In this document: positions 35,473 to 42,336 of the stretch, piece by piece
Numbering within the stretch: position 1 is the stretch's first letter
How the letters are laid out: each line of letters starts with the position of its first letter
Assembly (NCBI GenBank): GCA_020725335.1
Contig: DYFF01000008.1
Location: forward strand, 1-44,517
Reading direction: 5' to 3'
DNA from: Thermodesulfovibrio sp.
GTDB lineage: Bacteria > Nitrospirota > Thermodesulfovibrionia > Thermodesulfovibrionales > Thermodesulfovibrionaceae
Length of the DNA: 44,517 bases
Program-made: the position numbers and the translations under genes
Notes under the pieces: generated by a model
The model's input: the letters and a program-made list of their open reading frames with translations, nothing else
Database searches by the model: none
What the model was told of the DNA's origin: nothing

Positions 35473-37473
35473 ATGGCAAAAGTAGGGGTTTATCTGTGTC
35501 ACTGTGGAGAGAACATCAAAGGCGCTATCGATGTCGAAGAACTGAAAAAGTATGTGGAAACACTACCTGATGTTGCATTGGTCAGAAATTATGTTTTTAT
35601 GTGTTCTGACCCAGGACAAGACTTAATTAAACAAGATATTAAAAGTGGTGCTGTGGATCGTGTAGTAGTAGCAGCATGTACACCAAGGACTCATGGCCCT
35701 ATATTCAAACAAGCAGTAGAGGATGCAGGGCTTAATGGATATCTTCTTGAGATGGCTAACATAAGAGACCAGGATAGCTGGCCACACTGGCATAACAAAG
35801 AAGGTGCCCTTGAAAAAGCAAAGAGACTTATTAGAAGTGCTGTCGCCAAAGTAAAACTTAACGAGCCTCTTGAGGATCGTTATGGAGACATGGAAAAGTC
35901 AGTTATGGTTATTGGTGGCGGAATCGCAGGAATGTTTGCGGCGCTTGACCTTGCAAATATGGGTTTAAAGGTCTATCTTGTAGAAAGACAGCCATCAATT
36001 GGCGGTAATATGTCTAAGATTGATAAGACGTTCCCGACAATGGACTGTTCTGCTTGAATACTCACACCTAAAACGGGCGAGGTCGCCCAACATCCAAATA
36101 TAGAGCTTATTACCTACGCAGAAGTTGATGATGTTAAAGGTTATGTAGGTAATTTTGACATTCGCATTAAGAAGAAAGCCAGATATATTGACTGGGATAA
36201 ATGCATAGGTTGTGGTATCTGTACAGAAATCTGCCCATCAAGAGTTCCAAATGAATATAATTATGGCTTAAATCAGAGAAGAGCTGCCTATATAGAATAT
36301 CCTCAGGCAGTACCAAAGAAAGCAGTTATAGATGAAGCAAACTGTTTATATTTCAAATCAATGAAAAAGACAGGCAAGCCCGCTTGTGAAATATGTAAAA
36401 AAGGTATTCCACCCAAAGGAATACAGGGATGTCCTGCAGATGCAATAAAGTTTGAAGATAAAGACGAATATGTAAACCTCAAAGTAGGTGCTGTAATTAT
36501 TGCTACAGGATTTAAACCTATGGCAAAAACTCATTTCAAGGAGTACTCACCTCATAGCCCGGATGTTATAACCTCAATGGAATTTGAAAGAATCCTTTCT
36601 GCAACAGGACCAACAGGTGGTGAATTAAAGAGACCATCAGATGGGACAAAACCAAAAACAATTGCAATGATATCCTGTGTGGGTAGCAGAGATGAAAGAT
36701 ATCACTCATACTGTTCAAAGGTATGCTGTATGTATATGCTTAAACATGCAAGAATTCTGAAAGAAAAATATCCTGACATAAAGCTTTATCTATTCTTCAT
36801 AGATGTAAGAACAGCAGGTAAAGACTTTGAAGAATTTTATGTTTATACAAGAGAGTTAGGTGTTAAAGTTATTAAAGGCGGTAGAGTGTCAGCTGTTGAT
36901 GTAAAACCAAATGGAAAGCTCAGAGTAAGAGCCTTTGATTCTGACCTCTGCTCTCCTGTAGAGCTTGAGGCAGATTTAGTTGTTCTTGCAACAGCCATTG
37001 AACCTCCAGATGGAGTAGATGAAATGGGAAGAATGTTCAGTGCAACCTGCGGTAGAGAAGGATTTTTAAGAGAAGTTCATACAAAACTATATCCTGTTGA
37101 AACTTCAGCAAGAGGTGTATTTATCGCAGGATGTGTTCAGGGGCCAAAGGATATCCCTGAGTCAATAGCTCAGTCTCGTGCCGCAGCATCAGCCGCTGCA
37201 GCTTTAATTATTCCTGGTAAGATTAAATTTGAGGCCATTGTATCTGAAGTGGATAGAGATAAATGTAGCAGTTGTGGTGTTTGTGTACCCCTCTGCCCTT
37301 ACACTGCTATCAGAATTGAAGAGTATAAAGGTAAAGAGAAAGCTTATATTGAACCCGCACTTTGTGCTGGTTGCGGAGTCTGTGCCAGTGCATGTCCATC
37401 AAAAGCTATTACATTCCATGGTTTCACAACAGAACAGATATTAGCTCAGATTGATGCATTAACAGAGGCATAA
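35473..37473 (+). CDS. hdrA: Heterodisulfide reductase subunit A, selenocysteine-containing
   Basis: A 666-aa flavin/iron-sulfur protein if the TGA at 36055-36057 (codon 195) is read as selenocysteine. Reading through in the same frame gives TMDCSA-Sec-ILTPK, where the family has Cys in DCSxCILTPK. Order: N-terminal Cys region (GVYLCHCG), FAD-binding VMVIGGGIAGMFAALDLAN (about 143-165), Sec195, a [4Fe-4S] site C244/C247/C250/C254, a second flavin-associated part, and a C-terminal 2[4Fe-4S] domain (about C598-C641). HdrA carries the bifurcating FAD in HdrABC-MvhADG, sending electrons to ferredoxin and to the HdrB disulfide site. Selenocysteine HdrA is known in some methanogens and bacteria. 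It is the first gene of the operon. Confidence 0.93.
36055..36088 (+). promoter_or_regulatory. Sec UGA and SECIS-like hairpin in hdrA
   Basis: After TGA (36055-36057) a stem GGGCG (36075-36079) and CGCCC (36084-36088) encloses AGGT. The loop begins 23 nt after the last base of TGA, within the bacterial SECIS range, and the AGGUC sequence resembles the E. coli fdhF loop AGGUCU that binds SelB. Confidence 0.7.
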
Positions 37474-37493: not shown

Positions 37494-38030
37494 ATGGAAG
37501 AGGGTGGCGTAAATGTAATTGACCTTACCCAAGCAGATGAGAGTTTTGTAAAAGAATTGGAAGCCTTGGGTGCTGATGAATTAAGAGAGTGCATTCAGTG
37601 TGGGAAATGTGGAGCAACCTGTCCAATGGCTTTAGCTGGACTGGAGTTTTTTATTAAAAGATTGGTTCATGCAGCCAATCTTGGTTTGAGAGAGGTTCTT
37701 CTGGACGACTCTTCTGTATGGGGATGTCAGTCTTGTAACCGCTGTGTTGAAATCTGCCCTATGGATATAAAACCCTATGAAGTTATTCAAGCAATAAGAA
37801 GAGCTGCTGTAAAGGTTGAATCCTGCCCTGCAAATACCTATGAAGGATTAAGAAATCTTTACAGATTCGGACATGCAGTATTCCCAAAAGGTTTTGAGGA
37901 GAGGAGAAAGAAAGCAGGTTTGCCAGAGAAGCCTCCAACAGCATTGAGTTTTGAAGATTTACGAAAGAAATACCAGGAGATACTTAGAAATACAATCCTG
38001 GAAGAAATAGCACCATTCCCGCTTGATTAA
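37494..38030 (+). CDS. hdrC: Heterodisulfide reductase subunit C
   Basis: A 178-aa protein with two [4Fe-4S] motifs: ECIQCGKCGATCPMA (about residues 38-52) and GCQSCNRCVEICPMD (about 80-95). HdrC carries electrons between HdrA and HdrB. AAAGGAGGG precedes the ATG, 20 nt after hdrA. Confidence 0.95.
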   Translation: MEEGGVNVIDLTQADESFVKELEALGADELRECIQCGKCGATCPMALAGLEFFIKRLVHAANLGLREVLLDDSSVWGCQSCNRCVEICPMDIKPYEVIQAIRRAAVKVESCPANTYEGLRNLYRFGHAVFPKGFEERRKKAGLPEKPPTALSFEDLRKKYQEILRNTILEEIAPFPLD

Positions 38031-38040
38031 GGAGGATAAA

Positions 38041-38937
38041 ATGGAAAAAATTGGATTATTTTTAGGATGTAATATACCATTTAATAGACCAGATATTGAA
38101 TATTCTATTAGATTTTTCTTAAATGAGTTAGGGGTTGAGATTGTAGAAATGGAAGGAGCAGCCTGCTGTCCTGCTTATGGAACCATGCCTTCATTGGGAC
38201 TTTTAGAGTGGGCAACTGCTTCAGCATGGAATTTAAGTATTGCTGAGGAAAAGGGTGTTGATATGTTAACTGGTTGTGGCTCCTGCTATGGAGTTCAAAA
38301 TGAGGCTAATTATTATATCCATAAACATCCTGAAATAAAGGAAAAAGTTAATGAAATACTTGGCAAAGTCGGCAGAAAATATGATGGTACAGTTAAAGTA
38401 TGGAATGTTATTAATTTTTTGTATGAGAAAATAGGAATAGATAAATTAAAACAGAAAATTAAATATAATCTTAACGGTTTAAAATGTGGTGTTCAGACAG
38501 GATGTCACAATCTCTGGCCAAGTAAAGCATTTCCATCAAGTGAGGAAAATACTTTTTTCCCCACAAGAATGAGACAGTTAATTGAGGCAATGGGAGGAGT
38601 TGCGCCACATTATTCAACAATTACTGATTGCTGTGGAATGGGTGCTTTAAGGTCTAACGCTCCTGAGAAATCTCTTGCCCTTTTCAAAAAGAAGCTTGAT
38701 ATTATTAAGGAAGAACTTAATCCAGATTTAAATGTTATTGGATGTAGTTCATGCTTGTTACAATTTGATGCTGGTCAATCGCTTCTGATAGAGCAAAAAA
38801 AGATTGATTACAAGATTCCAGCCCTTCATCTTGCACAGCTTACTGCCATAGCATTAGGTGCAGAGGTAGACAAAGCCACAGCACTGGCATCAATTCCATT
38901 GAATGGAGTTATAACTAAGATAAAAGGAGGGAATTAA
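38041..38937 (+). CDS. hdrB: Heterodisulfide reductase subunit B
   Basis: A 298-aa subunit with two CCG-type cysteine domains: GCN, ACCPAYG and TGCGSC, then TGCHN, TDCCGMG and IGCSSCLLQF. In the methanogen complex these bind the two noncubane [4Fe-4S] clusters that cleave the CoM-S-S-CoB disulfide. Here the disulfide is unknown; DsrC-type trisulfide or a protein disulfide are candidates. I chose the ATG at 38041, with GGAGG at 5 nt; an in-frame TTG lies just upstream without a ribosome site. Confidence 0.94.
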   Translation: MEKIGLFLGCNIPFNRPDIEYSIRFFLNELGVEIVEMEGAACCPAYGTMPSLGLLEWATASAWNLSIAEEKGVDMLTGCGSCYGVQNEANYYIHKHPEIKEKVNEILGKVGRKYDGTVKVWNVINFLYEKIGIDKLKQKIKYNLNGLKCGVQTGCHNLWPSKAFPSSEENTFFPTRMRQLIEAMGGVAPHYSTITDCCGMGALRSNAPEKSLALFKKKLDIIKEELNPDLNVIGCSSCLLQFDAGQSLLIEQKKIDYKIPALHLAQLTAIALGAEVDKATALASIPLNGVITKIKGGN

Positions 38938-38938
38938 G

Positions 38939-39352
38939 ATGGCATGGGAGCCAAGACTGATTGTTATTGCCTGCCATTGGTGTACATACGCAGGGGCTGA
39001 CCTGGCAGGAAGTTTGCGTTATTCATATCCGCCAACAGTACACATAGTTAGAGTGCCCTGTAGTGGAAGAGTTGAACCTGAATTTATAGCAGAAGCCCTC
39101 AGAAGAGGTGCAGATGGTGTATTTATAGGCGGATGCCACTTTGGTGACTGTCATTATAAAGAGGGTAATTACAAGGCAATAAGAAGATTCAAACTTCTAA
39201 AGAGAAGTCTCACAGATCTTGGAATTCAACCAGAAAGAGTTCAGCTTGAATGGATTTCAGGAAGTGAGGGCAAAAGATTTGCTGAAGCCATGACAGAGTT
39301 TGATGCTAAAATAAGGGAACTTGGACCAAATCCTATGAAAGGAGGGGCATAA
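38939..39352 (+). CDS. mvhD: Methyl-viologen-reducing hydrogenase delta subunit
   Basis: A 137-aa [2Fe-2S] protein that links the hydrogenase to HdrA. It has VIACHWCTYAGADLAGSLR with both cysteines kept (methanococcal VhuD homologues can have selenocysteine here) and IGGCHFGDCHYKEGN. It lies 1 nt after hdrB and overlaps mvhG as TAATG. Confidence 0.95.
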   Translation: MAWEPRLIVIACHWCTYAGADLAGSLRYSYPPTVHIVRVPCSGRVEPEFIAEALRRGADGVFIGGCHFGDCHYKEGNYKAIRRFKLLKRSLTDLGIQPERVQLEWISGSEGKRFAEAMTEFDAKIRELGPNPMKGGA

Positions 39353-40308
39353 TGAGCAAACCTAAACTTGCATATTATTTAGCTGGCGGCTGTGGGGGCT
39401 GTGATATAGCAGTAGTAGATTTATCCGAAGCACTTATTGACGTTGCCCTTGCTGTGGACATAGTATTCTGGGCACCAACAGTGGCAGATGTTAAATATAA
39501 AGACTTAGAGGCTATGCCAGATGGTTCCATAGATGTGGGACTTATTTCTGGAAATGTTAGAAACTCAGAACATGAACACATTGCAAAGGTCCTAAGAAAT
39601 AAATGTAAAGTTTTAATAGCCTTTGGAATTTGCGCTGCCTGTGGTGGAATAAAAGGACTTGTTAATTTGCACACTACAGAGGAACTTCTTGATAAAGCAT
39701 ATGTGAATACATTCAGTACTGACAATCCTAATAAGGAATTACCACAAACAACCTGCGTAGTAGATGGAAAATATGAGTTAACCCTTCCTACATTAATGTA
39801 TGCTAAACCTCTTGATGAAGTAGTAAAGGTTGACTACTATATTGGTGGCTGTCCACCGCATTATGAACATGTGAAAGCAGCATTCACTGCTTTGCTTTCT
39901 GGACAACTTCCTCCGCCGGGTTCATGGATTACTATGGGTAAGGCAGTATGCGAAGTTTGTGGAAGAAACCCTGTACTGAAAGGTAAACCAAAGAGATTCG
40001 CAACAGAAGTAAAGAGAACAATTGATGGAGCACCAAGTGAAGACGGTTGCCTTCTTGAGGAAGGATATCTCTGTTTAGGTCCTGTAACTCAGGGAGACTG
40101 TGGGTCAAAATGTCCAGCAGCAAACATACCTTGCAGAGGTTGTGGTGGACCCATTCCAGGAGTTAAGGATTACAGTTTACGTGCAATTAGTTCTATAGCA
40201 AGCATGTTTGACAACGAAGATCTTATTGACCAGATTCCTGATCCTGTTCATCTTTTTTACAGATATACATTGCCAAGTTCTTTTCCATATAAGAGATTAA
40301 AGAGCTAA
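39352..40308 (+). CDS. mvhG: Hydrogenase small subunit (MvhG, F420-non-reducing)
   Basis: A 318-aa NiFe-hydrogenase small subunit carrying the Fe-S relay. The proximal cluster region is AGGCGGCDIAVVDLSEALID, then FGICAACGGIKG and IGGCPPHYEH. The C-terminal part has further cysteines: CEVCGRNP, GYLCLGPVTQGDCGSKCPAAN and PCRGCGG. There is no Tat signal, so it is cytoplasmic as in Mvh-type hydrogenases. Confidence 0.95.
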   Translation: MSKPKLAYYLAGGCGGCDIAVVDLSEALIDVALAVDIVFWAPTVADVKYKDLEAMPDGSIDVGLISGNVRNSEHEHIAKVLRNKCKVLIAFGICAACGGIKGLVNLHTTEELLDKAYVNTFSTDNPNKELPQTTCVVDGKYELTLPTLMYAKPLDEVVKVDYYIGGCPPHYEHVKAAFTALLSGQLPPPGSWITMGKAVCEVCGRNPVLKGKPKRFATEVKRTIDGAPSEDGCLLEEGYLCLGPVTQGDCGSKCPAANIPCRGCGGPIPGVKDYSLRAISSIASMFDNEDLIDQIPDPVHLFYRYTLPSSFPYKRLKS

Positions 40309-40361: not shown

Positions 40362-41831
40362 ATGAAGAAAATTGAAATTAATCCGATGACAAGGCTTGAA
40401 GGCCATGGAAAAATTACAATATTCCTTGATGAACAAGGGAATGTAGATAATGCATTTATGCAGGTAGTTGAATTCATGGGATATGAAAAATTTCTTGTCG
40501 GAATGCCCATTGAGGAGGTTCCAAGAACTGTAAGCACTATCTGTGGAGTCTGAAGAGGCGTACATTATACAGCCTCAGTGAAGGCTGCAGATGGAGTATA
40601 TGGAGTAGAACCTACTCCAACAGCAAAAAAAATTAGAGAACTCTTTTACCATGCACACTATGTTGAAGACCATACAGGAATTCTCTATGCCCTTGGTTTC
40701 CCAGATTTTGTATGTGGTCCGACAGCTTCACCTGCTGAGAGAAACCTTGTAGGGCTTGTGCTTAAGGTTGGTGCAGATGTTGGAAAGCTCGTTTTAAAGA
40801 AAAGATACTCAGCAGTTAAAATTTTTGAGTTAACTTCTGGAAGACCAAGCCATCCAGTTGCTGCATTACCAGGTGGATGGTCAAAGAGAATTACAGAAGA
40901 TGAGAGAAAAGAAATCCTTGCCTGTGCTGATGACTGCATAGAGCTTGCAAAATTAACCTTAGATGTTTTTGATAAGGTTGTGCTTCAGAACAAAGAGTAT
41001 ATGGAACTCGTAACAGGAGATGTTTATAAGGTAGTTACTAATTATATTGGTACAGTTGATGAAAATGATAAAACCACATACTATGATGGAACACAAAAGA
41101 TTGTTGATACTAAAGGAAATGAATTAGGTAGATTTAAGGGAATACAGTATCTTGACTACATAGCTGAAAGAACATTGCCTTGGACATATCAGAAAGCTCC
41201 ATATTTAAAGAAACTCGGATGGACTGGACTTGTTGAGGGTGATGGTACAAGTATTTACAGTGTTGGACCACTTGCAAGATTCAATGTATCAAGTGGTTTT
41301 GACACACCAATGGCACAGGAAGCCTATGAAAAAATGCTCGCAGCCTTTGGTGGTAAACCAGTTCACCACACATTAGCATATCATTGGACAAGAGCAATAG
41401 AGCTAATGCATGCAGCTGAAAAAGTAAAACAAATTGCTTCCGATGAAAGTATCACAGATCCTAATGTTCGTCAGGAACTTGGTACTCCTGTTGGTGAAGG
41501 TGTAGGAATTGTTGAGGCTGCTCGTGGTGTATTAATTCACCATTATAAAACAGATGACAAAGGAATTGTTACTGATGCTAATCTCATTGTTGCAACCACT
41601 CATAATAAGGGACCTATGAATATAGCTGTTCAAAAAGCTGCTAAGCACTTTATTAAAAATGGAAACGTTGATGAAGGAATTATTAATCTTGTTGAGATTG
41701 CCTATCGTCCATACGACCTCTGCTTTGCATGTTCAACTCATACACTTCCCGGAAGAATTCCTGTTAGAATAGATATAATAGACCATCACGGTGAACTTGT
41801 AAAAAGTCTAAGAAACTATGAATTAGCCTAA
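40362..41831 (+). CDS. mvhA: NiFe-hydrogenase large subunit with selenocysteine in the N-terminal CxxC
   Basis: A 489-aa MvhA (group 3c) if the TGA at 40551-40553 (codon 64) is read as selenocysteine. Both sides are in one frame and conserved: MTRLEGHGKITIFLDEQGN upstream, and RGVHYTASVKAADGVYGVEP downstream. The junction reads STICGV-Sec-RGVH, where the family has RxCGxCxxxH; the TGA is thus at the second cysteine, the bridging Ni-Fe ligand. The C-terminal motif DLCFACSTH (C454, C457) keeps both cysteines but has Leu in place of the usual Pro. A 29-residue tail after His460 should be removed by the downstream protease. AGGGGGG lies upstream of the ATG. A sequencing error or pseudogene is the alternative; the intact operon, the hairpin and selA argue against it. 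Confidence 0.88.
40551..40587 (+). promoter_or_regulatory. Sec UGA and SECIS-like hairpin in mvhA
   Basis: After TGA (40551-40553) the stem CAGCCT (40570-40575) and AGGCTG (40582-40587) pairs perfectly over 6 bp around the loop CAGTGA. The loop begins 23 nt after the last base of TGA, exactly as in hdrA, and contains a GU, as bacterial SECIS loops do. Confidence 0.65.
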
Positions 41832-41895: not shown

Positions 41896-42336
41896 ATGAA
41901 AAGTGTAATTATTGGTATTGGTAATCCTAATTTTAAAGATGATGGTGTTGGTTTAAAAATAGTGGAAAATTTTCAAGGAGATGTTGATAAGGTTACACTT
42001 TTAAATATAGGTTTTAATTTGATTGATTCATTATTAGGTTATGATAAAGCAGTGATTGTGGATGGAGTAAAGACAGGAAAAGAACCTGGAAGTATTATTG
42101 AATTTGATGTTGACTTCTGGGGTGATGTTTATGCAAGTGGTACTCATAATTTTTCAATCTTTGAGATTATAAGGATAGGTTATTCTGTTTTCCCTGATGA
42201 GATGCCAAAGGAAATAAAAATAATTGGCGTCGAAGTAGAAGATGTAGAGACATTAAGTAGAGAGTGTAGCCCTGCTGTTGAATCTGCAATACCTAAGGCT
42301 ATGTTAATTATTAAAGAGTATTTAGGAATAAATTAA
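41896..42336 (+). CDS. Hydrogenase maturation endopeptidase
   Basis: A 146-aa HyaD/HycI/FrhD-type protease: IIGIGNPNFKDDGVGLKIVE at the N-terminus with the Ni-binding Glu/Asp, and the Asp in VIVDGVKTGKEPGSI. These enzymes cleave the tail of the large subunit after the C-terminal DPCxxCxxH/R motif once Ni is in place. Its position after mvhA makes MvhA the substrate. It converges with the PiT transporter gene, overlapping by 4 nt. Confidence 0.93.
   Translation: MKSVIIGIGNPNFKDDGVGLKIVENFQGDVDKVTLLNIGFNLIDSLLGYDKAVIVDGVKTGKEPGSIIEFDVDFWGDVYASGTHNFSIFEIIRIGYSVFPDEMPKEIKIIGVEVEDVETLSRECSPAVESAIPKAMLIIKEYLGIN

Follow-up and report, generated by a model that had tools for sequence, protein, structure and literature searches.

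The stretch analysed here (the window; 44,517 nucleotides of Thermodesulfovibrio sp., contig DYFF01000008.1) encodes a NiFe hydrogenase large subunit with an in-frame UGA at codon 64, and it is very likely, close to certain on the sequence evidence, that this codon specifies selenocysteine (Sec). We consider it highly probable that the gene, mvhA, encodes the large subunit of a group 3c-type HdrABC-MvhAGD complex in which the selenium of residue 64 serves as a metal bridge; the bridge itself is inferred, and there are no protein, selenium or structural data. Related genes suggest, again with good probability, a second natural Ni-Fe-Se site, one with a bridging selenolate, that is spread across many phyla and several hydrogenase groups, evolved repeatedly, and has so far gone unnoticed. 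The relevant features of the gene are as follows.

40362 to 41831, forward strand: mvhA-like NiFe hydrogenase large subunit, 489 aa including U64 (from translation with TGA read as U, profiles and alignment)
40542 to 40544, forward strand: Cys61 codon TGT; by homology a terminal Ni ligand, and the first Cys of the N-terminal CxxC/U motif
40551 to 40553, forward strand: codon 64, TGA, predicted Sec at the Ni-Fe bridging position (from translation and orthologue conservation)
40570 to 40587, forward strand: SECIS-like hairpin CAGCCU-CAGUGA-AGGCUG, stem from +17 and loop at +23 after the UGA
41721 to 41732, forward strand: Cys454 and Cys457 of the C-terminal DLCFAC motif, the remaining two ligands, with ordinary Cys codons

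When TGA is read as U, positions 40362 to 41831 give a single 489-aa protein in which only codon 64 is recoded (U64, in STICGVURGVH). An earlier note on this DNA had placed the TGA at codon 64 of an intact mvhA, in place of the second Cys of the N-terminal motif, and had seen both Cys of DLCFAC retained; the translation bears out the former, and the codons of C454 (41721 to 41723) and C457 (41730 to 41732) the latter. The top NCBIfam model for the product is VhuA, with a score under its cut-off; in Pfam the product matches NiFeSe_Hases. The frame beyond the TGA had also been described as conserved. Compared with L015, one of the orthologues, codons 65 to 480 differ at codon positions 1, 2 and 3 in 49, 20 and 215 cases, respectively, and, given that the differences fall mostly at third positions, the frame after the TGA is by this measure under purifying selection.

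The alternative of a dead gene, its TGA due to nonsense mutation or sequencing error, draws some support from a standard gene caller, which opens the downstream frame at an internal GTG (40578). We regard it as hardly credible in the face of the strong purifying selection after the TGA and of the codon's conservation. Among 149 relatives screened with mvhA, 52 had a match at 1e-60. The alignment of orthologues that had been proposed as a check found TGA at codon 64 in 12 of them (85-100% identity, the window counted), all from separate genomes: ten from the genus, including the window, and two (in genomes G109 and G378) from another family of the same order. The three nearest Cys relatives (77-79% identity) have TGT, and two more distant copies at about 48% identity (L047 and L048) have TGA too. 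Single-contig assemblies (G002, G009 and G012) are among the genomes with the same TGA. Twelve orthologues from separate genomes with an identical codon rule out sequencing error, and conservation across genomes together with downstream purifying selection led us to reject a pseudogene and an internal restart as well. The two genomes of the other family carry a Thermodesulfovibrio-like Sec mvhA and Sec hdrA (L015/L049 on G109:C69; L192 on G378:C62), which could reflect either gene transfer or misbinned contigs.

The genome appears equipped to insert Sec. It encodes a tRNA-Sec with a UCA anticodon, a SelB that scores over its cut-off, and a SelD (L184, G000:C9) that is itself a predicted selenoprotein with an in-frame TGA (G-U-A-S-K). 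A selA candidate adjoining selB was rejected, as it proved to be a DegP-type protease. With an in-frame UGA where homologues have Cys, and with tRNA-Sec, SelB and SelD present, the criteria for a bacterial selenoprotein are met (SelA was outside this test). A genome with a TGT mvhA (G011) also has tRNA-Sec, and tRNA-Sec was found in 43 of the 51 genomes with such hydrogenases, in a search with stricter filters over genomes of which many are drafts.

The hairpin just downstream of the UGA meets the criterion for a SECIS element in its location. The bacterial SECIS consensus has a loop G at position 1 or 2; in the loop CAGUGA a G stands at position 3, so that the loop agrees with the consensus only in part. 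The six codons that underlie the hairpin (70-75) have the lowest synonymous variation of any six-codon window of the gene within the 12-member Sec clade (0.051 versus a mean of 0.415; rank 1 of 483). The best hairpin in 52 group 3c-like Sec genes has a median of -8.5 kcal/mol, versus -3.25 kcal/mol in 26 Cys genes (p 3e-10); these rows are related and thus not independent, and hairpins, in a few cases strong ones, occur in part of the Cys genes as well. In 18 distinct sequences aligned in one register, 99.1% of cells are paired, three of the six pairs show compensatory changes, covariation is 0.336 versus 0.181 when shuffled, and slid registers perform far worse than the hairpin's own. Given that the 18 sequences were picked for fitting that register, that the rows are related, and that the conserved protein sequence A-S-x-K-A favours part of the pairs, we take the covariation as support rather than proof.

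For some bacteria, Cys tRNAs that suppress opal codons have been proposed, and relatives have Cys at position 64, so the UGA might instead be decoded as Cys, by a suppressor tRNA-Cys(UCA) or a misloaded Sec system, to give an ordinary NiFe hydrogenase. This seems very unlikely to us. Among the eight best matches to the tRNA-Sec model in the genome, the only UCA anticodon is that of tRNA-Sec itself (the rest being Ser, Leu and a His/Arg pair), the SECIS-like hairpin lies at the usual distance from the UGA, and both hdrA and selD have in-frame TGAs at known Sec sites. Reading codon 64 as Sec, we infer that SelB would deliver Sec-tRNA to the UGA, aided by the hairpin.

The genes around mvhA are those expected of a group 3c complex.

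35473 to 37473, forward strand: hdrA, 666 aa, with an in-frame TGA (36055 to 36057) read as U195 (CSAU)
36075 to 36088, forward strand: SECIS-like hairpin of hdrA, GGGCG-AGGU-CGCCC, loop at +23 after the UGA
37494 to 38030, forward strand: hdrC-like 4Fe-4S protein
38023 to 38937, forward strand: hdrB-like CCG-domain protein
38939 to 39352, forward strand: mvhD (FlpD domain)
39352 to 40308, forward strand: mvhG-like hydrogenase small subunit (Oxidored_q6)
41896 to 42336, forward strand: HycI-type hydrogenase maturation protease

With hdrA, hdrC, hdrB, mvhD and mvhG in that order upstream of an MvhA homologue, and the protease downstream, the gene-set criterion for a group 3c HdrABC-MvhAGD complex is met. 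The second selenoprotein gene of the operon is hdrA, which the standard list of open reading frames cuts in two (U195 lies in DCSAU). Sec-containing HdrA is already a known selenoprotein family (PMC13188914); the copy in this operon has the CxxU Sec already described for that family and is not the novelty. In the three genomes with a TGT mvhA, hdrA has Cys at the Sec position. Given that a Sec-type mvhA adjoins a Cys-type hdrA (L189) in genome G012, the two Sec sites are not locked together and vary independently.

In each CxxC pair of a [NiFe] hydrogenase, it is the second Cys that bridges Ni and Fe; the first is a terminal ligand. The nearest solved structure by sequence is the MvhA of 5ODC, with which residues 1-484 align and in which Cys64 stands opposite U64. 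The earlier note's proposal of Sec at the bridging position is thus supported by this alignment and the textbook ligands, together with the conservation, the hairpin, and tRNA-Sec, SelB and SelD; a Ni-Se-Fe bridge would follow from homology. The protein departs from the canonical RxCGxC and DPCxxC motifs: it reads STICGVU and DLCFAC, with the ligand positions retained and the R, the second N-terminal Cys and the P changed. For this reason we use the label group 3c-type or -like. In the window's subfamily, T replaces R before ICG and DL replaces DP in the C-terminal motif, and the Cys members (L016-L018) have the same replacements. Since these motifs deviate from the usual ones, hydrogenase activity of the window protein is only presumed.

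The same deviations (from RICGxC and DPCxxC) leave room for the possibility that Sec is inserted but forms no Ni-Fe bridge, as in a divergent subfamily without the usual metal site or with another role. We consider this unlikely, given that none of the four ligand positions is missing, that the small subunit, MvhD, HdrABC and the HycI-type protease are present as well, and that members with canonical motifs around the Sec exist, including enzymes like Escherichia coli Hyd-2. In the bridging arrangement that we favour, the Hyp system and the neighbouring protease would mature the large subunit, and the selenium of residue 64 would replace the Cys sulfur between Ni and Fe, with Cys61, Cys454 and Cys457 as the other ligands. 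MvhG and MvhD would then carry electrons from H2 to the flavoprotein HdrA. As a guess, the enzyme is likely to gain an easier recovery from oxidation or changed Ni-Fe electronics; effects of a bridging selenium on oxygen tolerance or catalytic bias remain unproven.

None of the closest known natural systems has this arrangement. The MvhAGD-HdrABC complex of methanogens (5ODC) has the same kind of large subunit and the same set of operon subunits, but has Cys64 where the window protein has Sec64. HysA of Desulfovibrio and Desulfomicrobium is likewise a NiFe large subunit with one Sec among four ligands and a SECIS-dependent UGA; however, its Sec replaces the first Cys of the C-terminal motif and is a terminal Ni ligand, whereas that of the window MvhA replaces the second Cys of the N-terminal motif. 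The classical [NiFeSe] criterion, a C-terminal UxxC, is not met, as the window protein has CxxC there. VhuU and FruA of Methanococcales also belong to group 3, and the Vhu type is also Hdr-coupled, but these are archaeal selenoproteins with Sec in a C-terminal UxxC (PMC9312934, PMC13188914), and archaeal SECIS elements lie in the 3' untranslated region (PMC13188914), unlike the window hairpin just after the UGA.

The position has been occupied by Sec artificially. In E. coli Hyd-2, Sec was swapped into each of the four ligand Cys, and all variants were active at a reduced level; the C64U variant was processed and active, and C546U, at the classical position, was electrochemically distinct (PMC11212049). 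Hyd-2 C64U and its Hyd-1 counterpart have Sec at the position equivalent to that in the window MvhA, but through artificial UAG-directed insertion rather than a natural UGA. Thus a bridging Sec can be matured, and its natural benefit is open.

That known hydrogenase Sec sits in the C-terminal motif, as the earlier note has it, agrees with reviews of selenoproteins in prokaryotes (up to May 2026), which list large-subunit Sec only as UxxC (PMC9312934, PMC13188914). We found no literature on an N-terminal or bridging hydrogenase Sec, with most subscription papers outside the coverage of the search. A 2006 survey counts bacterial Sec-containing FrhA and, in the parts available to us, gives no position (PMC1794560), and a 2009 genome paper names a Sec-containing MvhA2DG yet lists the Sec in mvhD (PMC2702500). 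Either may hide an earlier sighting. Such hydrogenases have perhaps been missed because gene callers cut the genes at the UGA, and the genes are likely mis-annotated as truncated.

Hydrogenases with an N-terminal CGxU motif are not confined to this genus. The DNA pattern RICG[VI]UP..H, scanned over the genomes of 84,980 species, returned 44 stretches. In every one of them the sequence flanking the TGA encodes a NiFe large subunit; L120 reaches the end of its locus after a further 31 codons, and L103 stops early. As named in their records, the taxa include Chloroflexota, Bacillota (among them Desulfotruncus alcoholivorax DSM 16058 and Desulfoscipio geothermicus DSM 3669), Krumholzibacteriota, Zixibacteriota, Coatesbacteria, KSB1, Nitrospirota and others. 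The less strict pattern ICG[VI]UxxxH gave 32 matches in 31 of 396 Nitrospirota genomes versus 3 for the reversed pattern, and so lies well above chance; nine of the 32 had short frames and were rejected as chance. When the same 396 genomes were scanned for Sec in place of the first Cys of the N-terminal or of the C-terminal motif, neither pattern yielded a hydrogenase among the loci examined; the other C-terminal matches were judged by eye on the matched letters alone. A plasmid search gave no match.

The verified loci number 65, some being one gene met twice; with the mvhA orthologues, distinct genes also come to about 65. The C-terminal motif is CxxC in all 61 verified loci in which it is visible. 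These large subunits, from many phyla, include group 3c-like, Hyd-2-like and HysA-like enzymes. L147 is homologous to E. coli Hyd-2 over its full length (810 bits), with U64 opposite Cys64 of HybC.

Placing Sec or Cys as a label on a tree of 77 group 3c-like proteins requires a minimum of seven changes, and well-supported branches force at least three of these. By this phylogenetic reconstruction the Sec trait is one that has been gained or lost repeatedly; the seven changes are not a rate, because sampling was enriched for Sec. If our reading is true, a natural bridging-selenolate Ni-Fe site joins the terminal Ni-Se ligand, the sole natural position known, as a widespread trait of several hydrogenase groups and not a single oddity, and the artificial Hyd-2 C64U enzyme has natural counterparts. 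Repeated exchange of Sec and Cys at one ligand would provide natural pairs for a direct test of how the bridge atom affects activity, bias and recovery from oxygen.

The wider NiFeSe_hydrog model gives the best score for three loci (L108, L132 and L133). The nearest solved relatives of L097 are the HysA NiFeSe enzymes of Desulfovibrio, and it has an N-terminal Sec and a C-terminal CxxC. Together with L099 and L117, it forms a HysA-like set from Syntrophomonadaceae and Syntrophomonas in which an N-terminal Sec is combined with a C-terminal Cys, the reverse of classical HysA.
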